Positions 9,564 to 34,737 of a DNA stretch of 64,000 nt are shown one piece after another. The DNA comes from Alphaproteobacteria bacterium (lineage in GTDB: Bacteria; Pseudomonadota; Alphaproteobacteria; Sphingomonadales; Emcibacteraceae). The stretch covers positions 62,001 to 126,000 of the forward strand of contig JAUIDN010000001.1 of assembly GCA_030428615.1 (NCBI GenBank), written 5' to 3'. The notes beneath the pieces are model-generated. The model made no database searches, was not told the origin of the DNA, and was given only the letters and a program-made list of their open reading frames with translations. The position numbers and the translations under genes were made by a program. Position 1 is the stretch's first letter. Each line of letters starts with the position of its first letter.

Positions 9564-11987
9564 TTAGCTTGGCGTCTTCAGTTGCTCAAGCAGGTTTTTA
9601 ACCTCTTCCAATTGATCAAATGGCTGACTTTGCGCCAGTTTAACAACTTCTTCAAATTCCCTCGCCGCAGCGGCGTCTCTATCACCCGCCATGTAACTCA
9701 TGCCCAAATGATATCTGAAAATAACATTCGTCGGCATTTGTTCCACTACATCCTGTAAAATGGATGTTGCTGACTGTATATCACCAACTTTATAATAAAT
9801 CCATCCAAGAGTATCCTTGAAATGCGGCACGGAAGACTGGCGAAACCTTTTGGCCAGTTCCTCTGCCCTTGCCATACTTTCCGCGTCTGTTCGATATTCG
9901 GACAACAAACTCGCCAGATTATTTACGACAATATCCATATTAGGGTTTTCAGCATACATCTCGTCATATATAGAAATTGCTGTCTCAAAATCGGCGTCTC
10001 GTTCGTAAATATTGGCTTTTATGAGCTGCAACCCAACTTTATTTTCCACTGTTTGCAACGCATCATTTATGGTCTTCAACGCTTCAGCATTATTTGACGA
10101 CCTTATGTAATGACTAACAAGATTCATATAGGCAGCATCCAATTTTGGATCGGCCATCGCTGCTTTTTCAAAGCTTGCAACCGCCTCGTCATTTTTCTGT
10201 TCAATAAGATACATTTGCCCTTTTAAAACAAGCGCCTGATAATTATTTTCGTCGTCTGCAAGCACACCATCCAAGAATTCCTGTGCTTCATCTATCTGAC
10301 CGGCACGTGCATAGGAAGCGATCAACGATGAAAGCGGCCTGCTTGAGCCGGGCGTGTTGAAATAAGCATTTCTAAAGGCAACGATGCTTTGTTCGTAATT
10401 TTGTTGCCCGGTCAGTGCCAATCCTTCAATTTGCGTCGCCAGAATTTCATCATTATCCAGCTCTTTTATGGCGTCAGCCACTTCTTGCGCACCCAGCCAG
10501 TTTTGACGCATAAGCCTTACCCGCGCCAGAGATCTTAACAGGTCAAGATGCCGCGGATTGGTATTAAGCACATCCACCAATACGTCCTCCGCCCGCGCAA
10601 CGGAAGATTGTTTTGTAAGAAAATCTGCGTAGGCAATCGCGACTTCAGGGTTATTTTCACTGTAGCGAAGCGCATCCGCCAAAGTGTCATCAGCAAGTTC
10701 GATTGAGCCGTTTAGCTCATATGCTCTTGCAAGCAGCAAAGAAGCACGTACAGAATCCGGCTTTTCGCTGAGCACAATACGCAGATCCTGAATGGCGTTG
10801 TCGTAATTATTTTCATTCAGATAAATAGAACCCCGCATTTCAAGCGCCTGTATATTTGCGGGATCAATTTCAAGAATCTGCTCAATAATTAGTGATGCCG
10901 CCTCATAATTCTGGTCGGCCATTTCAAGTTCGCCAATTTTAGCGCGCGCGATCAGCCCATCTTCCGAACTTCCGGTTCTTTCAACTATCTTTCCAAGGAC
11001 TTCGCGCGCCGCAGTTATTTCATCCCGACCAAGATAGAAATCAGCGAGCGCCAACTGGTACCTCACGACATCGGTGCCGCGTTGAATAAGGGCATTAAGT
11101 TCCGCCTCTGCCGCCGCCGGCCCTTTATAGGTGTTCAGGAAACGCACAACATCAATGTTTTTTTCGTAATTTGCTGTATCGCGTGCGGCAAGATTTCTCA
11201 TTTCCCGTTCGCCCGCATCAACATTTTCGTGTTTGACATAAAAATTTACAAATGCCATGCGAACTTCGTCGTCATCGGGAAAGGCATCGATTAGACTACT
11301 GAAAGTTTCCTCCGCCTTATCAATCTGACCCATCGTTTCATAGATCATGATCGTGATAAGCATAAGATCTTTATTTTGCGATGGATCTACGTTGCTTTGG
11401 TTGATATATGCGAGTGCGCCTTCATAATCGCGGTTGGAATATCTCTCCGCCGCCAAAATCTGAATGGCGCTAAGATTACCGGGCTCTATTTCAAGTGCCC
11501 TATTGGCAAAATCAAGTGCACCTTCGATGTCTTCAAGTTTCAAAAGTACCGCAGCACGAAGCGCGAGCACTTCCGGATTCTGATTATCAAGTAAAAGCGC
11601 CGTTTCGCTTATTTCAACGGCTTTATCCAGTTGCCCTACCATCATCATCAACGCGCCAAGGCGCACTTGTGCTTCAATATGTGTTGGTTCCAGCTCAATA
11701 ACCTTATTCAGTAAGATAATGACCTTTTCCCACTCCTCATTTTCTTCCTCAACCAGAGACATGCCGTACCATGCAGGGACAAAAGTATCGTCGATCTGTA
11801 GCGCATTTCTAAACTCAAGACTTGCTTTAACAATATCGTTTTCTTCAAGCAACTCCATGCCATTCTCGTAGTGCGATTGCTTTATTTCCTCAGGGGAACT
11901 GCAAGCCGCAAGCCCGACGAACATTGCTGTAAGTAGCAACGACCTTACCGGTGTTTTGAATTTTGAAGCTTGGTTATCTTTTGTCAT
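9564..11987 (-). CDS. prsT: PrsT-like TPR lipoprotein of exosortase system
   Basis: An 807-residue protein made almost entirely of tandem TPR units (for example ALDFANRALEIEPGNLSAI and AIQDLRIVLSEKPDS). The N-terminus is a lipoprotein signal with lipobox LAAC, modified Cys29, followed by SSPEE. This matches the PrsT family described for exosortase/PEP-CTERM loci, somewhat shorter than many members. It is likely anchored in the periplasmic leaflet of a membrane, where the TPR superhelix would scaffold EPS polymerisation or export. It is the second gene of the exosortase-TPR-ATPase operon, with 30- and 22-base gaps. Confidence 0.85.
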   Translation of the reverse strand: MTKDNQASKFKTPVRSLLLTAMFVGLAACSSPEEIKQSHYENGMELLEENDIVKASLEFRNALQIDDTFVPAWYGMSLVEEENEEWEKVIILLNKVIELEPTHIEAQVRLGALMMMVGQLDKAVEISETALLLDNQNPEVLALRAAVLLKLEDIEGALDFANRALEIEPGNLSAIQILAAERYSNRDYEGALAYINQSNVDPSQNKDLMLITIMIYETMGQIDKAEETFSSLIDAFPDDDEVRMAFVNFYVKHENVDAGEREMRNLAARDTANYEKNIDVVRFLNTYKGPAAAEAELNALIQRGTDVVRYQLALADFYLGRDEITAAREVLGKIVERTGSSEDGLIARAKIGELEMADQNYEAASLIIEQILEIDPANIQALEMRGSIYLNENNYDNAIQDLRIVLSEKPDSVRASLLLARAYELNGSIELADDTLADALRYSENNPEVAIAYADFLTKQSSVARAEDVLVDVLNTNPRHLDLLRSLARVRLMRQNWLGAQEVADAIKELDNDEILATQIEGLALTGQQNYEQSIVAFRNAYFNTPGSSRPLSSLIASYARAGQIDEAQEFLDGVLADDENNYQALVLKGQMYLIEQKNDEAVASFEKAAMADPKLDAAYMNLVSHYIRSSNNAEALKTINDALQTVENKVGLQLIKANIYERDADFETAISIYDEMYAENPNMDIVVNNLASLLSEYRTDAESMARAEELAKRFRQSSVPHFKDTLGWIYYKVGDIQSATSILQDVVEQMPTNVIFRYHLGMSYMAGDRDAAAAREFEEVVKLAQSQPFDQLEEVKNLLEQLKTPS

Positions 11988-12017
11988 GATGTTTGTCCAT
12001 ATTCATCTTCGTTAATC

Positions 12018-13580
12018 TTAACTTGGCAAATAATTCGGCAAGCTTGGTGAAATAATATTTATAAAACTTTTCAACCTGTCTTCCGCCGCAGCCATATCTT
12101 CATCGCCTAATATTGGTGTTGTAACCCGCACGAGCGAACCATCCGTCCTGTTCATAAAAATAGCGTCCTTAACCAAATGCCATTTCATAATATACTCATT
12201 CGAAATTTTACGGCCTCGTTGATCGAACCAGTAATATACCAACTGTCGTGCCCCGTTGCGTTCTATTATAACACGATTGACCGGTAAGGGCTCTTTTTCA
12301 CTGGCAACGTCGATTTCTATCCTGTCAAACTCGGTGATCAGCCACCCACCTCCGGGAATGCAGACACGCGGAGAGTGTGGCGATACCCCTTTGCGTTGCG
12401 ACGCATAATATGCCACATAAAGGTTTACCGGGCGATTAAGCGCGGGTGAGCGGTAATCGGCAAGAATATAATCGTCAAGCCCCAATGCCGTTTCCACATT
12501 ATTTTCCAAATATGACTTGCGGGATGGCCACCCGTCAACTTCGGCAGGGAATGACACAAAACGGAACCTGTCAGGTGTATTCTCAACCCGGTCCGTTACA
12601 TTTATGGTGAAAATCACGGCCGCTACAAGACAGGTCAACGATATCACAGCAGGTGCGAGACTGCGGCTTTTATCGGCATTATTATCAACCGCTACGGCCT
12701 TGACTTCCGGTAGATCGAACAGCTCGAAAAAGTCGCCACCCTTGCCTAACCGGATAAAAAGCCACACTTCGCCACAGAGAATTGCGGCACATGCCATGAA
12801 AATAACCCATCCTTCAAAATAGTGAAGTAGGCCATCCGCCATGCCCCCTCCCCAATATTCCACAAGCACACCCACCATGCCTATGCGGAAGCTATTCATT
12901 AAAATTGTGATTGGAATGGTCGACAGAAAAATAATTGCCCGCTGCCATAATGGCGCCTTGTAAAGATATGCTACCAGAAATCCAAGGCTCGTGAGCGGGT
13001 ACAGATAACGAAGGCCACTGCAAGCATCAACAACCTGAAGCTTATAACTCCCCAGATCAATCACATTACCTTCAAGAAAAACAGGGATACTGAAAATACG
13101 GATAAAAAACACCCCGAGTTCCGATGAAATAAGCTGCAAACGCCATGATAAAATTGAATCCAGAAAATAGGGCATTGGGATCGCGAAGAGCAAAAACAGA
13201 ATTGGCAGCAATGTCAACCGAAGTACGGGCATTCCCCCGAACACAAGCGCAATACCAATCAGAGACACAATAAATCCCGTCTGAACAAGGATAAAAATAG
13301 CACTCAATTCACCAACCAGCAGCATAAATGCAGAAAGCAGAATGACGGGAATTCCAACCCATGATGGCCTATCAATACTCGACATCAATGCGTCACGTCT
13401 GTCCCACAACATCCACAGCGAAATCAAAGGAATAAGAAACCCGTGGCTATATTCCTCCTGTCCCATCCAACGGCCGTATTGATTGGCAAGTCCCCCGCTG
13501 AACGCCACTAAACTGAACAAAAGAGATATACCCAGTAACAGGAAATGAAGCCCGTTAGGTTTTAAAATATTATTTTGCAT
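12018..13580 (-). CDS. Exosortase fused to EpsI domain
   Basis: A transpeptidase-like integral membrane enzyme that cleaves C-terminal PEP/VPLPA-CTERM sorting signals. Residues 1-290 are the multi-pass exosortase domain with the conserved EEYSHGFLIP motif and the catalytic trio Cys187 (DACSGLRYL), Arg232 (NSFRIG) and His253 (LLHYFEGW). Residues ~310-515 are a periplasmic EpsI domain (HSPRVCIPGGGW). With VPLPPA substrates at 34143-35306 it fits an XrtD/XrtA-type fusion; the subtype is not certain. The start has no strong Shine-Dalgarno. It is the first gene of its operon. Confidence 0.92.
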   Translation of the reverse strand: MQNNILKPNGLHFLLLGISLLFSLVAFSGGLANQYGRWMGQEEYSHGFLIPLISLWMLWDRRDALMSSIDRPSWVGIPVILLSAFMLLVGELSAIFILVQTGFIVSLIGIALVFGGMPVLRLTLLPILFLLFAIPMPYFLDSILSWRLQLISSELGVFFIRIFSIPVFLEGNVIDLGSYKLQVVDACSGLRYLYPLTSLGFLVAYLYKAPLWQRAIIFLSTIPITILMNSFRIGMVGVLVEYWGGGMADGLLHYFEGWVIFMACAAILCGEVWLFIRLGKGGDFFELFDLPEVKAVAVDNNADKSRSLAPAVISLTCLVAAVIFTINVTDRVENTPDRFRFVSFPAEVDGWPSRKSYLENNVETALGLDDYILADYRSPALNRPVNLYVAYYASQRKGVSPHSPRVCIPGGGWLITEFDRIEIDVASEKEPLPVNRVIIERNGARQLVYYWFDQRGRKISNEYIMKWHLVKDAIFMNRTDGSLVRVTTPILGDEDMAAAEDRLKSFINIISPSLPNYLPS

Positions 13581-13726: not shown

Positions 13727-14821
13727 TTATTTTCCAGTGACCATAAAGCTTAGTTTATTGAGTTCAAGTATTTTTGCTATCTGTTTGCTTACCCCTATTA
13801 TACTCACTTGACGGTCAATTTCCGTCATTTTCTTCCACAGAATCAACAAAAGCCCCAGTGTCGACTGATCAATATATGTAACACCTTTCATATCTACGGT
13901 AAAATCACAGTTTTGTGTGACAAGTCTTTCAAACTCCACTCGGAGCTCCGGAGCAATTTTCTGCGTGAGACTCCCCTTAAGATTAATCAAATGATTGTCG
14001 TCATCCACGCTTATCCTGGGCGTTGAATAAGCGGGTTTATTCCTTATTATACGCCGGTAAGCCAGAACATTTGTGGCCAGTAATTTCAGAAACGATAACC
14101 CGTCGTGCCAATAACGACCAAACAGCCCTGGTTCTTCTTTTATGCGCCATAACCATTCAAGATGAAAGTTTTGTACCCAGTCCGGGGCCCTCTTAACGTT
14201 CCCTGCAATAAAATTTACCACGGCACCTAAATGGCTAATGACATTCGCATCGAGCTTAATGCGGTTTTTCTCGATCCACTCCTGACCTTTTGCAGCACCC
14301 AATGAAACAATTACAAAGTCAGGGTTAGCTTTGTTTATTTCATCAATAATCTCCGGCCTGCTCATTTCCTGAACCGTACCAAAGCCCGGGTTTAGATATC
14401 CAGCGCTAACCAACCCGCGCTTCTCTTCATTAAGGACTTTGTGAGCTTTTTCGGCAATTCCATCCTGTCCGCCAAAGAAAAACACCTTAATCGGTTTTTT
14501 GATGCAATCTTCATTACGCCTAAGGGCATCGATCAAACTGGAGCCGGCAACGCGTTCTCTGATCGGGATATCAAGAAGTTTGCACATGAAAACAATGGGC
14601 ATGCCATCTGCAATACTTAGATCTGAGTTAATCACGGAATCACGAAACGATTCATTTGCCTGCGCTGCAATAAGAAAATTCAGATTCGGTGTCGATATAA
14701 ACAGCTTTCTCTTTTCCGATATGGCATCAGTCACGGCCTTAACCGCACCATCCATATCAATCGCATCGAAACCAACGCCAAGAAGATTATAGAGATCGCG
14801 TTCAAAATCCCGGTTATCCAT
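13727..14821 (-). CDS. WecG/TagA (GT26) glycosyltransferase with C-terminal STAS domain
   Basis: Residues 1-250 match the WecG/TagA/CpsF family, which transfers a sugar (often ManNAc or a hexosamine) to a lipid-linked acceptor: STPNLNF near 43-49, the catalytic-site ADGMPIV at 71-77, and FFFGGQDG. Residues ~270-364 are a STAS fold (FTVDMKGVTYIDQSTLGL), which is not usual in this family. The phosphoacceptor position after the STAS Asp is Gln319. The frame is open to 14890, but the ATG at 14821 has a GGAG ribosome site and is preferred (364 residues). It overlaps the upstream GT2 stop by 8 bases. Confidence 0.85.
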   Translation of the reverse strand: MDNRDFERDLYNLLGVGFDAIDMDGAVKAVTDAISEKRKLFISTPNLNFLIAAQANESFRDSVINSDLSIADGMPIVFMCKLLDIPIRERVAGSSLIDALRRNEDCIKKPIKVFFFGGQDGIAEKAHKVLNEEKRGLVSAGYLNPGFGTVQEMSRPEIIDEINKANPDFVIVSLGAAKGQEWIEKNRIKLDANVISHLGAVVNFIAGNVKRAPDWVQNFHLEWLWRIKEEPGLFGRYWHDGLSFLKLLATNVLAYRRIIRNKPAYSTPRISVDDDNHLINLKGSLTQKIAPELRVEFERLVTQNCDFTVDMKGVTYIDQSTLGLLLILWKKMTEIDRQVSIIGVSKQIAKILELNKLSFMVTGK

Positions 14822-15746
14822 GATGACTTCTCCGCCACAAAGCTTCTTTCCGGTCGTTAATTTCCTGGATAGCTTTCTTTTTTCCGACAATCAATGCCCG
14901 GCGCTGATACCGCCTGATAAACTTAATCAGTGTCTTATCGGATTGCTGGTCGGCACCGCTCAACAAGCTTTTCAAATATCCCCACGCCATTGCCAAGCCG
15001 CCAACAATATATGGTGGGCGCATCATTCTATAGACAGCGGTTGCCATAAAATAGATGAAACTGCTGCCCATATAATACTGGCCAAACCCATGACGCATGC
15101 GGCCGGTTAATATACCCTTTTCGCTTGATCCCATCGGCCTTAAATGAATGAAACGGATGTCTTTCGCATCACTGCTTCGCGCAATCCAGCCCATAAACCG
15201 CGCGCGGTGACAATCAATCGCATCCCACATCACTTCGCGGACAAACCCGCCAATTTCCTCAAAACATTCGCGTCTGTAAAACTTTGATGCCCCAACACAC
15301 ATTTCATCGCCGCATTTCTCACTTATTTCCTCCCCATTGGAAATATAATATGGCTTGCCACTAAAGCAACCAAGACGGGGATTGTCTTCCATTTCTTTCA
15401 TTAGCAATTTAAAGTAATCCGGTGGCAGAATTAAATCCATATCCAGCTTACAGATATAATCATAGTCATTTGCATTGATCGTTTCATATCCGCGGTAAAA
15501 CGCTTCGATAACCCCTGGGCCAACGGCTCGTTTGCCTCGATCATCGTTCCTGATCACGCTGATCCAATTATATTTTCTGATATATTCTGCTATAATGTCT
15601 GGCGTTTCATCGGTGGACCCATCATCGACAATCACCCATTTAGCGGGTAAAACACTTTGCGCGACAACACTGTCCAGTGTTTTTCGCATGAAATCAGCTT
15701 CATTGCGGCAGGGAGAAATTATCAAATATGACATCTTGCTATTCAT
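14814..15746 (-). CDS. Family 2 glycosyltransferase
   Basis: A 310-residue GT-A enzyme with VDDGSTDETPD (nucleotide-sugar binding), the DXD-type KLDMDLILP motif and an acceptor-side region PYYISNGEE. The C-terminus has a hydrophobic segment (FIYFMATAVYRMM) suggesting membrane association. The frame is open to 15815, but the ATG at 15746 is preceded by GGAAGAGA at good spacing and slightly overlaps the previous gene, so it is chosen. It belongs to an operon of four transferases ending with the GT26-STAS gene. The donor sugar cannot be told. Confidence 0.85.
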   Translation of the reverse strand: MNSKMSYLIISPCRNEADFMRKTLDSVVAQSVLPAKWVIVDDGSTDETPDIIAEYIRKYNWISVIRNDDRGKRAVGPGVIEAFYRGYETINANDYDYICKLDMDLILPPDYFKLLMKEMEDNPRLGCFSGKPYYISNGEEISEKCGDEMCVGASKFYRRECFEEIGGFVREVMWDAIDCHRARFMGWIARSSDAKDIRFIHLRPMGSSEKGILTGRMRHGFGQYYMGSSFIYFMATAVYRMMRPPYIVGGLAMAWGYLKSLLSGADQQSDKTLIKFIRRYQRRALIVGKKKAIQEINDRKEALWRRSHHG

Positions 15747-16938
15747 TGAATATCTCTTCCAGCCGGTCAATATTGACATCTCGTCCGAACTCATCAACCA
15801 CATGCTTTGCCGCATTCTCGATCATTGACTGCTGTACGTCGCGTTCCAAAATGGCGTTTGCCAGAGCCTCCGCATTTTCCGGTTCAACCAACAGGCCTGT
15901 TTTCCGATCAATTACCAGTTCGGGGATACCGGAAATTTGGGTGGTGATTACTGGTACCCCGAGCATCATGGCCTCCATCAACACAACAGGAATACCGTCC
16001 ATATCGCCATTGCTGTCTATTTGGCACGCAAGAGCAAAAATATCAAATGATGACATCCACTCAGCCACCTTCGCATTCTCCAACGCTCCCACCATGGTAA
16101 TCTCATCCTGTAATCCTAAAGCGGCAATCTTGTTAATGATTTTTTCTTCCTGCGGACCATCACCCGCAATTGACAACGATATCGGCACACCCCTTTTTTT
16201 TAACATGCCGACCGCTTCAACCAACGTCAACATTCCTTTTTTTTCAACAAGTCTACCTAACGAACAGATTCTGATAACCTCACTTTTTGGTTTTGCTTTT
16301 TGGTCAAATTTGAGGTCCACACCGCACCGGACAACCCTTATTTTTTCGTCAGGCATCCCTATTTTTCTGAGGTAACGCCTATTAAACTCTGAAATGGTGA
16401 CAAAGTATTTTGCCCTTTCAGCTTTACGGGTAAGGAGCAACCCATGTTCAAAGATATCATTGGCATGCGATGTCACCGTGAATGGTATTCCGGTTATTGC
16501 AGAGGCATACATTGCCACTTGGCAAGGGACATTTGCAAAATGTACATGAATATGTTCCGTGCCGTTTTTAACAACAATCTGTGCTGCGCTGCAGGCCGCA
16601 AAAAATTGATAGATCAACTTATATGCACCCAGTTTAAAAATACCCACATTAATAAAATCTGAAATCAGCCACCCAAGCCCTTTGAAAAAACCAATCGGTT
16701 TTGTAAACAAGCAAATAAAAAACGAAAACAGAAATTGAATAAAACCTTCCCGATAAAGATAATGAACAGGCCCCATTCTGGCCGCAACATTTTCAGACAC
16801 GTTATCGGGTTTATGTATTGAAAGCGCATGAATCTTCGTACCACGCTCTCTTAAAGCAAAAATTTCGTTATAAACGAATGTTTCCGAAAGCGCGGGAATC
16901 GCAGGGGCGATGTATGTTATGACTTTTTTCTTCGTCAT
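15739..16938 (-). CDS. Family 4 glycosyltransferase
   Basis: A 399-residue GT-B retaining transferase of the GT4 type. The C-terminal donor domain shows VRICSLGRLVEKKGM, SIAGDGPQ and the E-X7-E region in VVLMEAMMLGVPVI. The N-terminal acceptor domain carries HVHFANVPCQVA. It resembles enzymes of colanic-acid-like gene clusters. It starts 3 bases after the acetyltransferase gene, and its end overlaps the next GT2 start. Confidence 0.88.
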   Translation of the reverse strand: MTKKKVITYIAPAIPALSETFVYNEIFALRERGTKIHALSIHKPDNVSENVAARMGPVHYLYREGFIQFLFSFFICLFTKPIGFFKGLGWLISDFINVGIFKLGAYKLIYQFFAACSAAQIVVKNGTEHIHVHFANVPCQVAMYASAITGIPFTVTSHANDIFEHGLLLTRKAERAKYFVTISEFNRRYLRKIGMPDEKIRVVRCGVDLKFDQKAKPKSEVIRICSLGRLVEKKGMLTLVEAVGMLKKRGVPISLSIAGDGPQEEKIINKIAALGLQDEITMVGALENAKVAEWMSSFDIFALACQIDSNGDMDGIPVVLMEAMMLGVPVITTQISGIPELVIDRKTGLLVEPENAEALANAILERDVQQSMIENAAKHVVDEFGRDVNIDRLEEIFNE

Positions 16939-16941
16939 ATT

Positions 16942-17454
16942 TCAGTTTTCTTTGTCTTTTACGGATCGGGCCGGTATGCCTACCACTGTGTCCCCCTGTT
17001 CCACATCTTTTAAAACTACGGCATTTGCCCCTATCCTACAATGATCACCGATTTTCACACGCCCGAGTATTTTCGCACCCGCGCCGATATCAACATGTCC
17101 GCCTACTTCCGGTACCTTCGCCTCTGTTCCCGCGCTCCCGATAGTGACCTGCTGAAAAATTAGACAGTTTGGCCCAATCACCACATTTGGATGAATTACA
17201 ATTCCATTTGGATGCGGAATAAGAAGCCCGCCGCCGATCCGGCAGGACAAATCAATCTCTGCCCCGGTCACCACAGACCAAAAGCGATGTGAAAGAACCC
17301 AGTATTTTTTATATATCATTCCAAAAAATCCAGTCTTTTCACTATCCAGTGCCTGATATTTCCGAATAGCACGAAGAAGACGCCGACCCGGATCCCAAAA
17401 TTTTCGCGGGCATTCTCTCTGCCAATCTGGACGCTCAGCCGATACTTCGGACAT
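16942..17454 (-). CDS. Serine acetyltransferase-like hexapeptide O-acetyltransferase
   Basis: A 170-residue left-handed beta-helix acetyltransferase. Hexapeptide repeats are visible from about residue 70 onward (IGGGLLIPHPNGIVIHP, then VVIGPNCLIFQQVTIGSAG and IGDHCRIGANAVVLKDV). It looks like serine O-acetyltransferases, but within EPS operons such proteins usually acetylate sugars. Its start shares one base with the stop of the upstream GT2, so it is tightly coupled. Likely role: acetyl-CoA-dependent O-acetylation of a repeat unit. Confidence 0.8.
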   Translation of the reverse strand: MSEVSAERPDWQRECPRKFWDPGRRLLRAIRKYQALDSEKTGFFGMIYKKYWVLSHRFWSVVTGAEIDLSCRIGGGLLIPHPNGIVIHPNVVIGPNCLIFQQVTIGSAGTEAKVPEVGGHVDIGAGAKILGRVKIGDHCRIGANAVVLKDVEQGDTVVGIPARSVKDKEN

Positions 17455-18446
17455 TAATCTGTCTCTTTCCTATTTTTATATTCTATAATGGTTTGCTGCT
17501 TTCCCGTTATTTTAGCGTAATGATACTTGAGAAATCCTAAAAATTCCGGAAATTTATCCAACACACAAAATATCGCAAATAACATCCGGTGTTTGGGCGC
17601 GTAAGGAATTGTAAGTTTTGTGTATATCCTAATCATTTGCAACGGGTAAGCCATGATCAGAAGTGATGCGATAACGGGCGATAAAAAAACTGATAAAATA
17701 ATTAAAGCGGGCAGCATTCCGCCCCAGAAAACCAGACTTCTTCGTGCTTTCTGCCAACGGCCCCATTCTTGTGCATTAGCGTATGAAAACCCCGTTCGAA
17801 CTGATCTGGTCCACCACTGGGCATAATTTGTGATGCCACTATCATGTCTGCCCATTTCGTTTTCAAGACATAAAAGTTTATACCCTTTCTGACGTATCCG
17901 TTGGTAAAATTCTGGCTCTTCACCTGCAATCAGATTTTCATTAAAACCACCGACTTTTTGAAAAATATCTGCCCTCACCGTGGCAATTCCGCCGCAGGAT
18001 TGAATTTCACCCGGTTTAATGTACCATCCAACGTCGGAAAGCAGGCGAAATACTGCACCCTGCCAGTTTACTTCCCTAAGGCGGCCGCAAACAACTGCAA
18101 CCTCCGCTCGGCAATCAAGCACTGAAACAGCGGAATTTATCCAACCCGGATTCAGATCACAATCACCATCAAGCATATGAACATACGATAAATCAGGTAT
18201 ATTTTCCGCTAACCATTTAAAACCGGCATTGCGCGCCCTTGCCGCGCTGAGCGGGCGCTCCGAACTTAATTCGATATAGGGAACAGCATTTGATTTCGCT
18301 ATTTCTATACTATTGTCAGATGATGCAGAATCAACATAAATAGCCCTAAGTCCGACTTTCTGAACCGATTTAATCGCGCGTTCAAGTCGCTCTCCTTCGT
18401 TTCTGCCAATAATGATAACGCCAACGCGGCTTAACATTTCCTCCAC
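17454..18446 (-). CDS. Family 2 glycosyltransferase
   Basis: A ~330-residue GT2 enzyme with IIIGRNEGERLERA, YVDSASSDNS and the DXD-like MLDGDCDLNP; acceptor-side residues include GEEPEFYQRI. Two hydrophobic stretches near the C-terminus (LPALIILSVFLSPVIASLLI) suggest a membrane anchor. The start is uncertain: GTG at 18446 has AAGG at good spacing, TTG at 18449 and ATG at 18437 are alternatives. It is the first gene of the transferase operon, 118 bases after the PP-loop genes; I see no clear terminator in that gap. Confidence 0.83.
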   Translation of the reverse strand: MEEMLSRVGVIIIGRNEGERLERAIKSVQKVGLRAIYVDSASSDNSIEIAKSNAVPYIELSSERPLSAARARNAGFKWLAENIPDLSYVHMLDGDCDLNPGWINSAVSVLDCRAEVAVVCGRLREVNWQGAVFRLLSDVGWYIKPGEIQSCGGIATVRADIFQKVGGFNENLIAGEEPEFYQRIRQKGYKLLCLENEMGRHDSGITNYAQWWTRSVRTGFSYANAQEWGRWQKARRSLVFWGGMLPALIILSVFLSPVIASLLIMAYPLQMIRIYTKLTIPYAPKHRMLFAIFCVLDKFPEFLGFLKYHYAKITGKQQTIIEYKNRKETD

Positions 18447-18564
18447 CAAGAACCTTTTTCGAAATCCAATTTATATTCGCACATTCTGTCTCTGAATTAT
18501 TTTTTGCATGGAACGATCCTGCACTGAAAATATATACTCCAGACGTTAATATATTGATACCGCT

Positions 18565-19758
18565 TTATTTTCCGGACTTTTCCGGCCAGACTACTTCCAC
18601 ACCCGCTTCTTCCAACATATCCGCAAAAAGTTTGGCATGGTGTAAATCTTTTCTGAATTCCGAAATTTTCGGATGGGGGTTTTCCATTGGGTAATTCACT
18701 TCCCGACCCAAAAGTTTTGTTCCTATCAATGGTCTTATATCACGCTGCGCAACGATACCAAGATCGGCATTTGCAATTATTTTACTGACATTTGGCCCAT
18801 GATATCCCGATAAAACCAGCATATCCATTATGGCGCGCAGAAAACTCATATGACCGCCCTGAAGACTGCTACATACTTCCCAAACTCGCTGAATTACAAT
18901 AGGCTGGAAATGATGTCCGACAATCGTATGAATGAATTGCGGCATCAAATATGAGAATTTTTTATATGAACGCCGGAAAAAACGCTGCGGTTCTACATAT
19001 GGCGTAATGAAATTCTTCCAGTCGTGTGTCAGATAGGCGTCACCTAGTTGCCCTTTCCAGAGAATGGCATTTTTGCTGTATTCATCCGAAACGTTGCAAA
19101 GATCCACCCCCCATCTCCAATGCGTAAGATCGGCACGGCAACACGCCTCAAGTGCCTCACTTTTAAGCCTTACAGGATCATTCGGATCTTTCAGTTCGCG
19201 TATCGGAATATCTAGATTGTTATCTTTAATAAATTTGCGCACAAGAGGGTAATTTGGTTTAGCACTTAACGCAATAATCGGGTTCTTCCAGGGCAGAAGA
19301 AGCAGATTCATGCTATCCCTTCCCCCACACATGATGATGTTTGTCTTGCCCGGATTTTTTTGTTCTATAAGTTCAATATCCTTAACCATCCCATCGGCGA
19401 TCGCAGATACATACTCATCAACATTGTTGTAACGAAAACTGCATTCATGGGGCGCGCCAATTTTGGCAATTTCCTCATCAATTGTGTAATTACCATTATG
19501 ATTTGAAAACATCTCATCTGATAACGCGTCCAGTGCAACCTGATTAATTTTTAAACTGTTTTTTTTAAGAATTAACGCGAATGGAGAGTAGGAATAATAA
19601 TTATCGAATTTATATATATTATAGAAAAAAGGCGTCCCTTCGAACCGATCTGCCTGCCAAATAAGCGGGCCGTGTTCCTGCCACACCATATCTTCCGTAA
19701 GCACCGGAACCCGCCGGGGAGTTTTAACTTTTTCTCTTACAGTTTCAATATAGTTCAT
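18565..19758 (-). CDS. Asparagine-synthetase-like PP-loop protein, copy 1
   Basis: A 397-residue protein of a family I cannot name. The P-loop CGGRDSMNLLLLPW (Cys144-Asp148-Ser149) matches the SGGxDS pyrophosphatase motif of asparagine synthetase-type ATP enzymes, followed by ALSAKPNYPL, paired Cys206-207, HWRWG (213-217) and WKGQLGD (234-240), which may stand for the acidic pocket. Residues 25-75 (GPLIWQADRFEG...YSYSPFALIL) resemble the tail of the class-II glutaminase domain, but there is no N-terminal Cys nucleophile. It is the third of three tandem paralogues, 14 bases after copy 2. It probably adenylates a carboxyl or carbonyl group; the substrate is unknown. Confidence 0.6.
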   Translation of the reverse strand: MNYIETVREKVKTPRRVPVLTEDMVWQEHGPLIWQADRFEGTPFFYNIYKFDNYYSYSPFALILKKNSLKINQVALDALSDEMFSNHNGNYTIDEEIAKIGAPHECSFRYNNVDEYVSAIADGMVKDIELIEQKNPGKTNIIMCGGRDSMNLLLLPWKNPIIALSAKPNYPLVRKFIKDNNLDIPIRELKDPNDPVRLKSEALEACCRADLTHWRWGVDLCNVSDEYSKNAILWKGQLGDAYLTHDWKNFITPYVEPQRFFRRSYKKFSYLMPQFIHTIVGHHFQPIVIQRVWEVCSSLQGGHMSFLRAIMDMLVLSGYHGPNVSKIIANADLGIVAQRDIRPLIGTKLLGREVNYPMENPHPKISEFRKDLHHAKLFADMLEEAGVEVVWPEKSGK

Positions 19759-19772
19759 TGATTGCCTTTAAA

Positions 19773-20975
19773 CTAATCCCGGGAGTTAATTATCTCTATG
19801 TCATTGCTTTCAAGCAGATCAACAAAGAGCTCCGGATTATGTAAACCAAGCCGTTTATCAGAAATTCGCGGCGCAGGATTTTTTCTCGGATAAATCACTT
19901 TCCTCCCCAAAAGAGCCTCACCTATCTCATCCCGGATGTCTTTCTGTGCAACTTTCCCAAGATCTGCCGATTTTAAAATTTTGCTCATACGTTTCCCATG
20001 ATAAGCGGAAAGAACAAGGCACCCCGTAATTGCGCGAATAAAACCAACATGAGCCCCCTGCGCGTTTGCACCATATTTCCATACTCGCTGCTCTACACCC
20101 GGCAAAATAATTTTTGCGCCTATTTCATTAAGAACAGGCGGCAGATAAGGTGATATTTTACCATATATTTTGCATAGAAATGTATAAAGATTATTTTTAC
20201 CGTAGGTGTATGTTTTCCAACGTGTCGACATGTACAAATCCCCCATCTGCCCCTTCCAGATCACAACTTTTCGGTCAAACATTTCTGATATCTTGTTAAG
20301 ATGCTGCCCCCATCGCCAGTGAACCGCGTTAAACCGACAGCAAAGCTCGGCGATTTCCCGTTTTAAAAAACCATCTGTAACATCGTCACTTAGGCGAAGC
20401 ACATCAATATCCAGGCCATTATGTTCTACAAATTCACAGACGAGCGGATAATTCGGTTCAGCACTGACAGCAATCACTGGATTTCTCCATGGCAAGAGAA
20501 GCAGATTCAGACTGTCTTTACCGCCGCACATAACAACGTTTGTGTGTCCGGGGTTTTTTTCTTCAATATCCGCAATATCATCTTTCAGGGCATTGACTAT
20601 TTTTGCGCAATAATCATCTGAATCCGTAATTTCATTTGTTGAACTATAAGGCGCCCCAAGACGCTCAATTTCCACATCAATCAATTGCTCATGTGAAAGC
20701 GCTGCAAAATCTGCTGACCCGGCTTTTTCATAAGCGTTTCTATTTAAAACCAATTTCTTCTTTTTTAGGATCAATGCAAGCTGGGAATAGGAATAGAAAT
20801 TCTTATAGCGATATACGGGGTAAAAAAACGGCTTTCCGTCGAATTGGTCTGCCTGCCAGATAAGTGGCCCGTGAGTTTCCCACATCATATCTTCCGTAAG
20901 CAGTTCGACCTTCTTTGGCGAATTTACTTTCTCTTTGATATCGTCGATATATTCAAGGGAGCTTTTATTCAGCAT
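19773..20975 (-). CDS. Asparagine-synthetase-like PP-loop protein, copy 2
   Basis: A 400-residue paralogue of the genes on either side. Its P-loop is CGGKDSLNLLLLPW at 150-163, with Lys in place of the Arg of copies 1 and 3, followed by VSAEPNYPL, ELCCRFNAVHWRWG and VIWKGQMGD. The shared N-terminal block (TEDMMWETHGPLIWQADQFDG) and C-terminal blocks (GAHVGFIRA, LSAYHG) are all present. Its ATG lies inside the end of copy 3, overlapping by 7 bases, which implies coupled translation. Function is not known. Three intact diverged copies argue for distinct substrates or a hetero-oligomer rather than recent duplication. Confidence 0.6.
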   Translation of the reverse strand: MLNKSSLEYIDDIKEKVNSPKKVELLTEDMMWETHGPLIWQADQFDGKPFFYPVYRYKNFYSYSQLALILKKKKLVLNRNAYEKAGSADFAALSHEQLIDVEIERLGAPYSSTNEITDSDDYCAKIVNALKDDIADIEEKNPGHTNVVMCGGKDSLNLLLLPWRNPVIAVSAEPNYPLVCEFVEHNGLDIDVLRLSDDVTDGFLKREIAELCCRFNAVHWRWGQHLNKISEMFDRKVVIWKGQMGDLYMSTRWKTYTYGKNNLYTFLCKIYGKISPYLPPVLNEIGAKIILPGVEQRVWKYGANAQGAHVGFIRAITGCLVLSAYHGKRMSKILKSADLGKVAQKDIRDEIGEALLGRKVIYPRKNPAPRISDKRLGLHNPELFVDLLESNDIEIINSRD

Positions 20976-22141
20976 ATCCTGATACCATTTTCTTCCAGCA
21001 TATTAATAAATTGTTCGGGGTTATGAGCGTCTTGACGGAATTTTGAAACCTCTGGACCCGGATTTATATGCGGGTACCAAGCCTCCCGGCCCAGTAATTT
21101 TCTGCCTATAGCGGCGCGGATATCATGCTGAACCGCCCTTGCCAAATTTACTTTCTTATAAAGCTTTGTCATTTCCTTGCCATGATATGCGGAAAGTGCC
21201 AGCGTGTCGCATAACGCTCTTATAAACCCCATATGGGCACCCTGTCGCTGTGCGAAAATATGCCATGCTCTGACATATCCACCCTTGAGAATTTTTTCAC
21301 CAATCCAGTATTTTAAGAAATTCGGCATGAGAAAAGAAAGTTTCCGATATGCTTTCGATCCATATATATTAAACTTCGTCTTCGGAAATACGTATTCTTT
21401 CCAATATGGGGTCAATAAATTATCACCGAATTGCCCTTTCCAGATAATCGCCTTTTTTCCGTAATCTTCCATAATTTTCTTCAAATGCCCACCCCATCGC
21501 CAATGCACCATATCAATTCGGCAACAGCATTCAAGGCTTTCATGTTTCAGGGTATTTTTGTCAAACGGGTCTTCCAGCCGCCTGACTTCGATATCGAGAT
21601 CGTTATTTTTTACAAATTCAAGTGCCAAGGGATAATTTGGCTCCGCACTTAGGGCGACAACCGGATTATTCCACGGAAGAAGCAGTAAATTCAGGCTATC
21701 TCTGCCACCACATAGCACCAGGTTTGTATATCCGGGGTTTTTTTCTTCAATTTCATTTATATCCATTTTCAAAGCCCGTATTATGTGATCAACATAATCA
21801 ATCGGGTCTATGATACTGTTTTCAGAAACAGCCACGCCCCCAATCCGGACGATTTCTTCATCTATAATTTCGAAACTGGCCAGCGCTTCAAAAGCGGGGT
21901 GTGCCGCTTTTTCAAAAGCGCTGCGGTTAACCTTCAGGTTTCCTTTTTTGATAATCAGCGCCAAAATAGAGTACGAATAATAATCCTTCCAATGATAAAC
22001 CGGATAAAATGTCGGCGTGCCATCAAATTTGCTTGCCTGCCATATCAACGGCCCGTGAGTTTCCCACATCATGGCTTCGGTGAGACAGGACACCCTCTCC
22101 GGTTCTTTGATATTTTGCCTGATGTGATCAATATAATTCAT
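20969..22141 (-). CDS. Asparagine-synthetase-like PP-loop protein, copy 3
   Basis: A 390-residue member of the triplet and the first transcribed, 28 bases after galU. It has the P-loop CGGRDSLNLLLLPW beginning at Cys144, then ALSAEPNYPL, LECCCRIDMVHWRWGGH and IIWKGQFGD, plus GAHMGFIRALCDTLALSAYHG. All motifs expected to hold ATP are intact, so it is unlikely to be a pseudogene. No signal peptide or membrane helix is visible, so it should be cytosolic. The placement behind pgi and galU ties its expression to UDP-glucose supply. Confidence 0.6.
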   Translation of the reverse strand: MNYIDHIRQNIKEPERVSCLTEAMMWETHGPLIWQASKFDGTPTFYPVYHWKDYYSYSILALIIKKGNLKVNRSAFEKAAHPAFEALASFEIIDEEIVRIGGVAVSENSIIDPIDYVDHIIRALKMDINEIEEKNPGYTNLVLCGGRDSLNLLLLPWNNPVVALSAEPNYPLALEFVKNNDLDIEVRRLEDPFDKNTLKHESLECCCRIDMVHWRWGGHLKKIMEDYGKKAIIWKGQFGDNLLTPYWKEYVFPKTKFNIYGSKAYRKLSFLMPNFLKYWIGEKILKGGYVRAWHIFAQRQGAHMGFIRALCDTLALSAYHGKEMTKLYKKVNLARAVQHDIRAAIGRKLLGREAWYPHINPGPEVSKFRQDAHNPEQFINMLEENGIRIC

Positions 22142-22169: not shown

Positions 22170-23045
22170 TCAGAACAGATCTTTATTGGTTTGCAAAAAT
22201 TCTTTTATACCGTCCCTCATGTCACCCCTCTCCATCGCAAAAGCGAGGTTCGCAAGTATGAAACCCGTCTTATCACCACAATCAAATCGCTCACCTTCAA
22301 AAAGCAGCCCATGAAACGGTATAGTGCCCAGCATTTCGGCCATGGCATCTGTCAATTGGATTTCCCCACCCGCGCCAATTTTCTTTTTCTCAAGAAACGT
22401 AAAGACTTCCGGCTGCAATATATAACGTCCGATGATGGAAAAATTAGAAGGCGCATCTTCCGGCGCTGGTTTTTCAACAAGGCCCTGAACCTCAATCACA
22501 TTTCCGTTTTGACTGGCCACATCAAGAATACCATAACTTGATGTTTTTTCCTTCGGCACTTCTTCAATCGCGACAATGTTTCCGCCTTTTTGCTCATAAA
22601 TGTCAAGCATCTGTCTAAGACATGGCCGCTTCGCGCGCACAAGGTCATCTGCGAGCAGTATCGCAAACGGTTCATTGCCAACAATGTTTTTTGCACAATA
22701 GATAGCGTGCCCGAGACCCAATGCTTCCTGCTGACGGGTATAGGAAATGCTTCCTTCATTTGGAAGAAGATCCATCAATTCATCAAGAATTTCCGTTTTA
22801 TTCTTACGGGCCAGCATATCTTCCAACTCGTAAGAGTGGTCGAAATGATTTTCAATCGCCGTTTTACCACGCCCGGTTACAAAAATTATTTCTTCAATAC
22901 CTGCCGCCCGTGCTTCTTCAACCGCATATTGGATAAGCGGTTTATCAACCACCGGCAGCATTTCCTTGGGCATGGATTTGGTGGCGGGTAAAAACCTTGT
23001 CCCCATGCCCCCCACGGGGAAAACCGCTTTTCTGACCGGTTTCAT
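22170..23045 (-). CDS. galU: UTP-glucose-1-phosphate uridylyltransferase
   Basis: This enzyme makes UDP-glucose from UTP and glucose-1-phosphate, a precursor for EPS sugars. The 291-residue sequence shows VFPVGGMGTRFLPATKSMPKEML at the N-terminus (nucleotide and phosphate binding), LPVVDKPLIQY, LLADDLV with the metal-binding Asp, and LVEKP. It lies 12 bases after pgi and 28 before the PP-loop triplet in one operon. No UDP-glucose dehydrogenase gene is present in the window. Confidence 0.95.
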   Translation of the reverse strand: MKPVRKAVFPVGGMGTRFLPATKSMPKEMLPVVDKPLIQYAVEEARAAGIEEIIFVTGRGKTAIENHFDHSYELEDMLARKNKTEILDELMDLLPNEGSISYTRQQEALGLGHAIYCAKNIVGNEPFAILLADDLVRAKRPCLRQMLDIYEQKGGNIVAIEEVPKEKTSSYGILDVASQNGNVIEVQGLVEKPAPEDAPSNFSIIGRYILQPEVFTFLEKKKIGAGGEIQLTDAMAEMLGTIPFHGLLFEGERFDCGDKTGFILANLAFAMERGDMRDGIKEFLQTNKDLF

Positions 23046-23057
23046 TTAAATTCCTTA

Positions 23058-24437
23058 CTATTTTTTCTTTGTTTTTATTTTCGCGCTTTTTTTGGGCACG
23101 ACCTTTGCTTTTGGGACCGGAATAGTCTGTTTCATGGTGTGCAAATGGGATAAATATTCCTTGGTAAGGTTTTTACCATATTCCACAGACGGCTGATTGT
23201 GCGGATCAACGCCGATTAGTTCCGCTGTGATAATGGTTTCCAGAATGAAATGCATAATCAGCGCACCAAGCGTTCTTTCATTAATTTCATGAATTTTGAT
23301 ATGTCTGATGGGTTTACCCCGTTCGCCTAATGCTTCCACTGTGCTGTTTGCTTCAGCACTAACCAGATCGCCAATTGTTGCACCTGCCATAAATCGATAT
23401 TCATCATCATCGATAAGCATGGAATCGATCGTTGGACCTTCACCCTTGCTTGAGGTTGTTATAACCGTAAAATATTTATCGTTTGGCCCGTCGAGGAATA
23501 ATTGCAACTGGCTATGCTGATCCATTGGCCCAAGGGCACTAAACGGTGTTGTACCCTTGCCGTTTTTTCCCAGGCTTTCTGCCCACAGCTGTTTATACCA
23601 GCTGGAAAACCTTTCCAGCCGACATTCATAAGGCATCATCACATTGATATTGATATTTTGCTTATTCTGAAGTTCATAGGACGCTATTGCCCCCATCGCC
23701 GGCGCCATATCACAGACATGCTCCGCTTCCATGACGGTGTTCAAAACCCGTTGTGCACCGTCCCGCAGCGCCACGACGTCCAGTCCCACAATCATCGCTG
23801 GCAATAACCCGACAATGGAAAAAACCGAAAACCGCCCGCCCAAACCAGGATCATGATAGTGGATCGGAAGCCGCCATTTAACGGCAAAATCGTGTAAAAA
23901 ACTTGGACCTGGTTGAACGATAACCGTAAAATACTTTTTTATTTCCTTCTCACCGACCAGCGTTAACAGATTGGAAAAACACGCCAGCATCTGTGCAATT
24001 GTTTCGGCGGTGCCCCCTGATTTGGATATCACCAGAAAATGAGTGTTGGATAAATCAAGTTCCGAAATTAACTGCTGCATCGTATGCGGACCAAGGTTAT
24101 CGGGAAAATGAATTCTTGCCTTGCCGTTTTGCACATAAATCTGTTCCCCAAGAAGAGAAACCAACATCTGCGCACCGAGACTGGAACCGCCGGTGCCAAG
24201 AACGACAACGTCCTTGAATGATTTTGAAATACGGCTCGCTGTTTTTCGGATGTCGGTCAGATCCGCCCGTTCACTTGGCAATTGCAGATAAGGATAAAGG
24301 TATTTACGACTGCTGTTTCCATATTTGCGTTTTTCACGCAATGTCGAAAGAAAGCTTTTTATTTTCTTATCGTAGCCTTCCAGATCAATGTCATCGCACT
24401 TGTCGAATACATTATCGAAATATGTTTCGTATAGCAT
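23058..24437 (-). CDS. pgi: Glucose-6-phosphate isomerase
   Basis: This enzyme interconverts glucose-6-phosphate and fructose-6-phosphate. The 459-residue protein has the sugar-phosphate site GTGGSSLGAQML, VISKSGGTAET, the family signature around GLGGRFSVFSIVGLLPA and a late QPSVEYGKNL segment. It is the shorter bacterial type. A Lys-rich tail (last ~20 residues) has no counterpart in the core family. As first gene of the pgi-galU-PP-loop operon it may divert carbon into nucleotide sugars. Whether it is the only pgi in the genome cannot be told. Confidence 0.92.
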   Translation of the reverse strand: MLYETYFDNVFDKCDDIDLEGYDKKIKSFLSTLREKRKYGNSSRKYLYPYLQLPSERADLTDIRKTASRISKSFKDVVVLGTGGSSLGAQMLVSLLGEQIYVQNGKARIHFPDNLGPHTMQQLISELDLSNTHFLVISKSGGTAETIAQMLACFSNLLTLVGEKEIKKYFTVIVQPGPSFLHDFAVKWRLPIHYHDPGLGGRFSVFSIVGLLPAMIVGLDVVALRDGAQRVLNTVMEAEHVCDMAPAMGAIASYELQNKQNININVMMPYECRLERFSSWYKQLWAESLGKNGKGTTPFSALGPMDQHSQLQLFLDGPNDKYFTVITTSSKGEGPTIDSMLIDDDEYRFMAGATIGDLVSAEANSTVEALGERGKPIRHIKIHEINERTLGALIMHFILETIITAELIGVDPHNQPSVEYGKNLTKEYLSHLHTMKQTIPVPKAKVVPKKSAKIKTKKK

Positions 24438-24512: not shown

Positions 24513-25892
24513 TTAAATTACAGTGAAATTAATGATTGCCATCTTTACCGCAAATCCCGCACCATACCCAATGACTGCCGCAGGCAACATACGAATTTCA
24601 TATTTTGGAATAAGCATACCCTTGCTGCCTCGGTAAATGATATCAATGATCGCAGTAACCAGATGAACTGATACCAGTCCCCAAAGCGCCCCCTTCAGAC
24701 CCATCTGAAAATAAAACGCCGGCATCGCAGTAGCCAACACCAACAATTCTACCGCTTTTAAAAATGCTGGAAATTTTGAATTTCCGATTGAATACATCAA
24801 CACTGACGAAATAATAGGCGCGGTAAACAACAGTGTTAATGCTAAAATTTCAAGCATCCCACCAGCTTCCACATACCTGTCGTCATACAGAAATAAAATT
24901 ATGGCTTCGGCACTAGCAAAAAGAAAACCAGCAGAAAAAATAGCTAGGGCATCTGTTCTAAGACGTATTTTATAATAATATTCGACAAGTTTTTCGCTAT
25001 TTTCTCTGGCAACCTCACTAAACATGGGAAAGAAAACCATACTGTTTATTTTTCCCAATATACCTTGAAAAGAAGATGAAAGAAAATAAGCTATTCCGTA
25101 GATCCCCATCATTTCGGCTGAGATAAAGAATCCAAGAAACAATCGGTCTCCCTGGAAATAAAAAGCCGTAATAACGGAAGACGCAAATATCCATTTTCCA
25201 AAATGAAATATTTCCCAGAATGCCTCTTTATCCCAGTGAAACCTGTTTTTTTCACCCGGAAAGCTGGTGTGTGTGAGAATCATGTAGGAAAATGAGGTCC
25301 AAAGTGCCCCAGCAACCAAAGCCCAAATTGACCGGTCATAAAGCGCCCAGACAACCATTATCATTAGTCCGCTAACCTGACTGATTAATCCCAATATCGT
25401 GAGGCGCCCCAAAAACAAGCGTCTATTTGCAAGATAAGTATTTGTTGAATTGCCGCTGGAAATAATCAGAGACAATGACATCACGGATAAAATCAGAGGA
25501 AAATCTTCAGCTGCATACGCTGAATTTTCTAAAAACCAGCCCAGATCATTTGCTTGATTTATGAATTGCGCGACCAACAGAACCCCTGACATCATCAGTA
25601 ATCCCCGGATAATTTGTATTGTCCAGGCTGTATTCAAAAATGCTTGTTCTTCACCGCGTTTACTTGTAATGACGCTCGGCTTAATTCCTACATCTGAAAT
25701 CAGGCCGATTATGTAAAGAAATACTTGTGTCAACGCCATTAACCCAAACATCTCGGGCACCAGCAATCTTGTCATAATAAGGTTGCTTCCCAACCTCAAT
25801 AATTGACCTGCCCCATAACCTGCTAAAGTCCATGAACCCGCTGCAACAACCCGCGATGTCAGGCTACCTGTTGATTTTGTTACATTTTCCAT
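24513..25892 (-). CDS. Wzx-type polysaccharide flippase
   Basis: A 459-residue membrane protein with about 12-14 hydrophobic segments, resembling the oligosaccharide flippase/polysaccharide biosynthesis family (MOP superfamily). The N-terminal segment GSWTLAGYGAGQLLRLGSNLIMTRLL with LVPEMFGLMALTQVF is characteristic. It should move lipid-linked repeat units across the inner membrane. It is a single gene, 75 bases upstream of pgi and divergent from the glycosyltransferase at 26099. Confidence 0.88.
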   Translation of the reverse strand: MENVTKSTGSLTSRVVAAGSWTLAGYGAGQLLRLGSNLIMTRLLVPEMFGLMALTQVFLYIIGLISDVGIKPSVITSKRGEEQAFLNTAWTIQIIRGLLMMSGVLLVAQFINQANDLGWFLENSAYAAEDFPLILSVMSLSLIISSGNSTNTYLANRRLFLGRLTILGLISQVSGLMIMVVWALYDRSIWALVAGALWTSFSYMILTHTSFPGEKNRFHWDKEAFWEIFHFGKWIFASSVITAFYFQGDRLFLGFFISAEMMGIYGIAYFLSSSFQGILGKINSMVFFPMFSEVARENSEKLVEYYYKIRLRTDALAIFSAGFLFASAEAIILFLYDDRYVEAGGMLEILALTLLFTAPIISSVLMYSIGNSKFPAFLKAVELLVLATAMPAFYFQMGLKGALWGLVSVHLVTAIIDIIYRGSKGMLIPKYEIRMLPAAVIGYGAGFAVKMAIINFTVI

Positions 25893-34646: not shown

Positions 34647-34737
34647 CGACTTCGTTCCTGGCTGCACCAACATTAAGAGATACTTGTTCGGTAAAGCATA
34701 AACAAAAGAACATTCATGCTTGAAACTTATAGGGTGG

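Follow-up and report, generated by a model that had tools for sequence, protein, structure and literature searches.

The closest described counterparts of the proteins treated here are asparagine synthetase (AsnB) and the enzymes built on its fold. Nine AsnB-type proteins taken as a reference (Escherichia coli AsnB and eight others, gene numbering) share an invariant Cys2 following Met1, the SGGxDS loop, Asp352, Glu353, Tyr358 and Lys450. Beta-lactam and carbapenam synthetases are AsnB-fold enzymes that do not use glutamine and that keep a longer N-terminal domain and a Tyr-Glu catalytic dyad. Other AsnB relatives, WbpS and WbqG, carry a glutaminase, fall in NCBIfam family TIGR03108 (eps_aminotran_1) and are encoded in surface-polysaccharide loci, in which uronamide is formed in O-antigen and anionic lipopolysaccharide (A-LPS). 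The available text of one report (PMC7468200) places AsnB-like genes in some exosortase loci and describes WbpS of Porphyromonas gingivalis as making the uronamide of the A-LPS sugar that carries secreted proteins, its authors speculating about exosortase systems. Here we describe three tandem genes, given the working label PPx (copies 1 to 3, PPx1 to PPx3), in a stretch of 64,000 nucleotides from an alphaproteobacterium of the Emcibacteraceae (GenBank assembly GCA_030428615.1, contig JAUIDN010000001.1, positions 62,001 to 126,000 of the forward strand; the whole stretch is termed the window). Their products form a rare family that neither Pfam nor NCBIfam covers with a model and that represents an uncharacterised variant on the asparagine-synthetase fold.

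In the window, copies 3 and 2 share 7 bases, copies 2 and 1 are separated by 14 bases, and the gap between galU and copy 3 measures 28 bases. Pairwise identity among the copies was 206/390, 183/390 and 182/394 (46-53%), with copy 3 being 53% identical to copy 2 and 47% to copy 1, and a search of the host genome returned three matches at E <=10, all of them the window copies. The open reading frame (ORF) coordinates and these identities bear out a preliminary description of this DNA, made from its letters, as holding three intact, tightly spaced and partly overlapping paralogues. The motif blocks quoted in that description were present in the alignment, including LWKGQ and GGHMSFLRA of copy 1, except that copy 2 has VIWKGQ and not IxWKGQ. 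The gene spacing would be consistent with co-transcription of PPx with pgi and galU.

An AlphaFold model of copy 3, calculated from a 20-row PPx alignment, had a mean predicted local distance difference test score (pLDDT) of 95.2 and a predicted template modelling score (pTM) of 0.92; it supersedes an earlier 8-row model (pLDDT 69, Foldseek top match AsnB at 4.5e-5). The top Foldseek matches in the PDB were carbapenam synthetase (8.3e-7), TsnB9 hydroxyamidotransferase (6.3e-6), AsnB (5.1e-5) and beta-lactam synthetase (7.5e-5). By VIA-align, the AsnB, beta-lactam and carbapenam synthetase group was matched at Z 13.9-15.4 over 290-330 residues, with best scores of 15.4 for beta-lactam synthetase, 15.3 for carbapenam synthetase and 15.2 for E. 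coli AsnB; the predicted model aligned to AsnB (1ct9_D) over 305 residues, spanning model residues 5-390. The beta-lactam (1mbz, 1jgt) and carbapenam (1q15, 1q19) synthetases were thus the best structural matches (Z 14.9-15.4), and this match is not specific because it is tied with that to AsnB. The next fold class, LarE, with a single PP-loop domain, scored Z 9.2 over about 150 residues. On this model PPx is predicted to have the two-domain fold of asparagine, beta-lactam and carbapenam synthetases, and the structural comparison that the preliminary description had proposed yielded the asparagine-synthetase-type fold anticipated there and not an unrelated one. Among viral structures (BFVD), the best matches were AsnB-like and glutamine-amidotransferase proteins and were too general to be of use.

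The model differs from AsnB at its N-terminus, where the first ~100 residues of PPx occupy the place of part of the glutaminase domain; about half of that domain is gone, and with it the segment bearing the catalytic Cys. A Met-Cys start, which bears the N-terminal catalytic Cys of glutaminase, is seen in none of the 20 PPx rows, and in the rows cut inside the start (L014, L021, L022, L023 and L029) the upstream stretch is also without Met-Cys, as the earlier claim of a missing N-terminal Cys glutaminase had it. By contrast, the ATP loop is kept: the GGxDS loop was found in all 20 rows (Gly145, Gly146, Asp148 and Ser149, each 20/20), as in AsnB, and Asp240, which by local motif corresponds to the metal Asp in the GxxxD loop of AsnB, is Asp in 19 rows and Glu in one. 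The loop Ser of AsnB is replaced, with residue 144 being Cys in 19 rows, Thr in one and never Ser. The conserved PP-loop and Asp240 argue for binding of ATP or pyrophosphate.

NCBIfam returned no family for any of the three window copies at E 10. In Pfam, copies 1 and 3 were without a match and copy 2 had only two chance-level rows (E 0.17 and 0.19), and a search with 20 PPx members gave four unrelated families, each matching a single member (best E 0.13). The Asn_synthase model PF00733 matched none of the 20 members at E 5, and the seven PF00733 places in the host genome include no PPx gene. The window copies and the alignment gave no relevant match in PHROGs and no convincing match to a solved structure among PDB sequences, and plasmid and phage records held no PPx match. 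Viral contigs gave none with a single-protein query and one locus (L031) with alignments, the ORF list of which is that of a Tranquillimonas locus (L024). No description of the family was found in the available text of the open-licence literature searched for PPx-family terms.

The PPx family is rare and patchily spread. It was detected in 4 of 60 genomes searched as relatives (host included), all of one genus, and at E 1e-5 in 1 of 385 genomes of a class sample, which was the host. A pattern-based scan of 84,980 species, which detects only copies with conserved peptides, yielded 20 PPx loci in Emcibacteraceae and other Alphaproteobacteria, one Burkholderiales, one Pseudoalteromonas, one Planctomycetota, one Nitrospirae, six Nannocystis and one Cecembia record. 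The 20-row alignment comprised the three window copies, five from the genus and 12 others, and all rows but copy 3 itself show 33-54% identity to copy 3. It excludes L026-L028 (Nannocystis, similar to rows that were kept; L027 and L028 change frame near the end), the partial L006, L009 and L030, and L011-L013, L015 and L031, which repeat copies already included. The resulting tree has long branches (L029, L022, L024), and eight rows are of uneven composition. In it, every window copy pairs with a separate counterpart from G009, a genome of the same genus (support 100/99 for copy 1, 84/81 for copy 2 and 100/99 for copy 3), so the three PPx lineages appear older than these species.

Within the genus, PPx varies in copy number at one position of an operon of the order Wzx-pgi-galU-...-GT2(17454)-...-WecG-exosortase (the two GT2 glycosyltransferases are distinguished by their first window coordinate). 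PPx is absent from the operon in G004 and G008, in which galU adjoins GT2(17454), and the count rises from one in G009 (L015) to two in G010 (L012) and three in the window; galU stands in the same gene order in L012 and L015. In G006 the locus breaks at the first PPx copy, at a contig end, and this copy changes frame (L030, ~10351-10384) through assembly error or decay. Genes for a hexapeptide acetyltransferase (LbH), a GT4 glycosyltransferase and GT2(14814) are all in the locus of G000, G009 and G010 and all missing from it in G004 and G008, the LbH homologues of which lie outside the locus beside a dapB-like gene (assigned by eye); G006 has GT4 and GT2(14814), 78-72% identical. With 14814-15740 as query and a threshold of E 1e-40, the relatives positive for GT2(14814) were precisely the four, out of 60, that have PPx; because of kinship within the genus, this does not amount to four independent events.

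Outside the genus, GT2(14814) was detected at E 1e-20 in 4 of 14 searched PPx genomes (L014, L016, L019 and L020), and homologues of the operon's products are encoded near PPx in four distant lineages. These were GT2(14814) at 59%, GT4 at 44%, GT2(17454) at 39%, WecG at 47% and LbH at 49% over 78 residues in the Burkholderiales locus (L014); GT2(14814) at 56%, LbH at 53% and GT2(17454) at 37% in Planctomycetota (L016); GT2(14814) at 59%, GT4 at 43% and, directly adjoining PPx, LbH at 61% in Pseudoalteromonas (L017); and GT2(14814) at 57% and GT2(17454) at 37% in L020. Taken together, LbH, GT4 and GT2(14814) largely come and go with PPx, and homologues of some of them recur beside it in these four lineages. 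We take PPx and these three genes to form an optional cassette within the exosortase-type polysaccharide locus of the window. Large PKD-domain proteins that are related to each other (31% identical) adjoin PPx on the opposite strand in L014 (7617-9800) and L016 (11194-13362), and L016 has a second relative further along.

The window locus is an exosortase-type (XrtD) exopolysaccharide (EPS) locus with PPx in its pgi-galU operon, the exosortase gene lying about 5 kb from PPx. An exosortase was found in 10 of 18 searched PPx genomes (L017 not among them), that is in all four of the genus and in 6 of 14 outside it, and a strict tie between PPx and exosortase was rejected on this count. The background was 19 of 142 genomes for the class and, with the host included, 22 of 31 for close relatives, so kinship explains part of the tie. 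G012, another member of the genus, carries a distant exosortase but lacks PPx, and a search with 25 window genes found none of them at E 1e-5 within the 19 kb surrounding that exosortase. PPx also occurs among other polysaccharide genes: all six Nannocystis loci had GT4- and epimerase-type matches (with flippase, GT4 and nucleotidyltransferase by Pfam in L025), the Cecembia gene stands among glycosyltransferases and an ABC exporter (by eye), the Sphingosinicella gene is near a flippase, a methyltransferase and a pyruvyltransferase, and the Nitrospirae gene lies between a sulfotransferase and an AsnB-type amidotransferase. The latter (L018:8613-10628) has a glutaminase domain and directly follows PPx, so that PPx and AsnB-type genes can coexist in one gene run. 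Thus, PPx is at home in exosortase EPS loci and also in other polysaccharide loci, and is not confined to the former.

Some copies have a different setting. The Tranquillimonas gene (L024) lies in a prophage, flanked by tail-fibre and holin-like genes (the holin match being weak, 2.6e-4) and itself on the opposite strand, and it is possible that this copy (L024/L031, around 10004-13085) would be a cargo gene altering the host surface. One G009 copy is two genes from a relaxase gene, and another copy has as its neighbour what by eye is a XerC-like recombinase gene; XerC commonly has a housekeeping role. These settings would suit a view of PPx as mobile-element cargo, unrelated to EPS, that lands in EPS loci by chance. 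We consider this extremely unlikely, as the number of copies varies jointly with the partner genes at a single place in the operon, and partner homologues recur near PPx in the four distant lineages.

We propose, giving it an even chance, that PPx serves a variable EPS cassette as a tailoring enzyme that uses ATP, with some other nucleophile in place of ammonia from glutamine. Because it travels with particular sugar-transferase genes, PPx probably decorates the polysaccharide. In the cytoplasm, PPx would bind ATP at its CGG(K/R)DS loop and activate a group on an EPS building block (a nucleotide sugar or lipid-linked precursor), releasing pyrophosphate; the nucleophile would attack the activated group, so that one sugar comes to carry an amide, an ester or a comparable decoration, and the three old paralogues may act on different residues or use different donors. 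We infer this ATP use, reaction and substrate, and acyl or amide transfer to EPS sugars is plausible. With PPx, the asparagine-synthetase fold would gain a family that is without glutaminase and seemingly without the known catalytic residues, with the ATP loop kept. Since the small cassette naturally differs in presence and copy number at a single operon site, what it does to polysaccharide structure can be tested directly. A bolder version, which we regard as very unlikely, makes PPx a new glycan-tailoring PP-loop class with non-AsnB chemistry, the amine- or acyl-bearing sugar product of which would, in exosortase loci, be the exosortase acceptor for VPLPA-CTERM proteins, with the paralogues and the prophage copy varying the acceptor or a phage receptor. 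The Porphyromonas WbpS system may offer a parallel, by analogy, for PPx in exosortase loci, and if the PPx product were the acceptor sugar, this would bear on what exosortases attach proteins to.

Findings of two kinds, catalytic and genomic, weigh against the tailoring-enzyme proposal. With PPx 237-241 placed on the AsnB loop by local motif alignment and not by superposed structures, position 241, beside Asp240 and at the place of AsnB Glu353, is Asn, Leu, Ala, Ile, Val or Thr and is Glu in none of the 20 rows, and position 237, at the place of the dyad Tyr of beta-lactam and carbapenam synthetases, is Gln in 15, Ala in 4 and Thr in 1. No Lys column is conserved in at least 18 of 20 rows, the only basic residues kept at this level being His320, Arg342 and Arg369. 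Glu353 and Lys450 of AsnB are thus apparently not kept, and AsnB-like adenylation may be lost in PPx because the Glu353 position is never Glu and no Lys is conserved. The apparent loss argues for altered catalysis, with Arg342 or Arg369 perhaps involved. In addition, comparison of the PPx and AsnB profiles by hhalign scored 25.4 (E 0.04), compared to 17.7 for a reversed control and 25.8 and 23.3 for the best and next of 20 column-shuffled controls; because the score is no better than that of the best shuffled control, the fold assignment rests on structure prediction. A sequence-level AsnB link drawn by eye (FYPVY on PLYY, CGGKDS on SGGIDS) was dropped, its score being matched by a shuffled control. 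For the substrate adenylation put forward in the preliminary description, the PP-loop and metal Asp are in place, whereas the Glu and a conserved Lys apparently are not and the AsnB profile match does not exceed the best shuffled control.

The same residues bear on the main rival to a ligase, a non-catalytic role in which the AsnB fold has become a binding subunit for sugars or nucleotides and serves to hold or regulate the cassette glycosyltransferases or acetyltransferase, with no AMP-forming catalysis. Such a pseudo-synthetase would be expected to have lost, as PPx apparently has, the Glu353 position and any conserved Lys, and many Asn and aromatic residues are invariant (Asn151, Asn169, Asn180, Asn360, Trp157, Trp216, Tyr319 and Tyr356), of a kind often seen in carbohydrate sites. 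We nevertheless find this role somewhat unlikely, given that GGxDS in 20/20 rows and Asp240 in 19/20, down to 33% identity, go beyond the need of a dead site and that two G009 copies lie away from the cassette. Other PP-loop chemistry on a sugar (sulfur, nitrile or amidine transfer of the LarE, TtuA or QueC type) has a very small chance in our estimate. LarE, TtuA, NcsA and NadE were the next structural matches, the PP-loop Ser is Cys in 19/20 rows, Cys207 is kept in 17/20, and an AsnB-like nitrile-making enzyme appears in the available text of PMC13060819. By contrast, the match to the two-domain architecture of AsnB is much the closer one (Z 15 compared to 9), and Cys144 is the sole Cys kept in at least 18 of 20 rows, so that a conserved Fe-S cluster is unlikely.

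On the genomic side, LbH of G006 was recovered in no more than two fragments, of 36 and 50 residues, and not at E 1e-20, so not every genome keeps the cassette strictly intact. In the class sample GT2(14814) was detected in 2 of 385 genomes, the host and G308, and since G308 carries it without PPx, a requirement of GT2(14814) for PPx was rejected. Ten of the 14 PPx genomes outside the genus are without GT2(14814) at E 1e-20, and 8 of the 18 PPx genomes, all outside the genus (six Nannocystis, Cecembia and Tranquillimonas), have neither this gene nor an exosortase. The recurrent polysaccharide linkage expected from the preliminary description was found in neighbourhoods of homologues, with the exception of four copies, two of G009 (L011, L013), L019 (four neighbours scanned) and L024, which had no recognised polysaccharide genes adjacent among the genes examined. 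Finally, a PF03721 search detected no uronate source among the locus genes.

The dehydrogenase result relates to a special case of the ligase reading, with which its probability overlaps: a uronamide or aminoacyl-amide synthetase of the WbpS/AsnB kind, in which free ammonia or an amino acid would amidate an EPS uronic acid. This would be in keeping with the predicted AsnB fold of PPx and with the uronamide made by WbpS in A-LPS, and the host genome's single clear nucleoside-diphosphate-sugar dehydrogenase, which is TviB-like and encoded outside the locus, could supply an amino-uronate. A UDP-glucose-dehydrogenase-type match (PF03721) of 1e-62 or better was found in most PPx genomes outside the genus, and there was no strong one in G000, G009 and G010 (best 1.8e-37) and a middling one in G006 (4.4e-51). 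The AsnB catalytic residues are apparently not kept, and PPx is not WbpS/eps_aminotran_1 by the NCBIfam test because the three copies have no match there. We judge this special case unlikely.

The PPx genes and the surrounding EPS locus are listed below. The neighbours of PPx resemble proteins of the eps (methanolan) gene cluster, for which NCBIfam has the models EpsA, EpsC, EpsD and EpsE, with 127 bits for EpsA, 121 for EpsC and 176 for EpsE, all below the cut-offs; PPx itself, by contrast, has no NCBIfam model.

Features of the PPx region, with coordinates in the 64,000-nucleotide window
Feature	Coordinates	Strand	Properties	Basis
Copy 1 (PPx1)	18565..19758	-	397 aa; CGGRDS PP-loop	ORF list, alignment
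Copy 2 (PPx2)	19773..20975	-	400 aa; CGGKDS PP-loop	ORF list, alignment
Copy 3 (PPx3)	20969..22141	-	390 aa; predicted AsnB-fold PP-loop protein, CGGRDS = residues 144-149	ORF, model
Wzx-type flippase (Polysacc_synt_3)	24513..25892	-	Upstream of PPx	Family match
pgi (glucose-6-phosphate isomerase)	23058..24437	-	Order same in relatives	Named by eye and in the preliminary description
galU (UTP-glucose-1-phosphate uridylyltransferase)	22170..23045	-	Upstream in same gene run	blastn matches to annotated galU
GT2 glycosyltransferase GT2(17454)	17454..18449	-	Retained in relatives without PPx	Family match
Hexapeptide (LbH) acetyltransferase, EpsC/CysE-like	16942..17454	-	PPx cassette partner	NF041874 121 bits, below cut-off 150
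GT4 glycosyltransferase, EpsE/WcaL-like	15739..16938	-	Cassette partner	Below EpsE/WcaL model cut-offs
GT2 glycosyltransferase GT2(14814)	14814..15815	-	Cassette partner	
WecB/TagA/CpsF glycosyltransferase with C-terminal STAS-like domain	13727..14890	-		Family match
Exosortase-EpsI fusion, XrtD (VPLPA-CTERM) type	12018..13580	-		TIGR04152 566 bits, cut-off 400

The joining of WecB/TagA/CpsF to a C-terminal STAS/anti-sigma-antagonist-like domain is an unusual-looking fusion. Rfam and tRNA scans of the window returned nothing. On the strand opposite to the EPS locus and near it, an 868-aa protein is encoded at 4896-7502 (+), which by eye is possibly a glycoside hydrolase, and a similar-looking ORF of 862 aa has the same place in G008. 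Two small ORFs at 34143-34673 (-) and 34779-35306 (-) end, by eye, in a VPLPP-like motif (NPLPPSV... and AVPLPPAV...) followed by a hydrophobic stretch and RRRR, and from these features their products are likely VPLPA-CTERM substrates of the XrtD exosortase of the same region.

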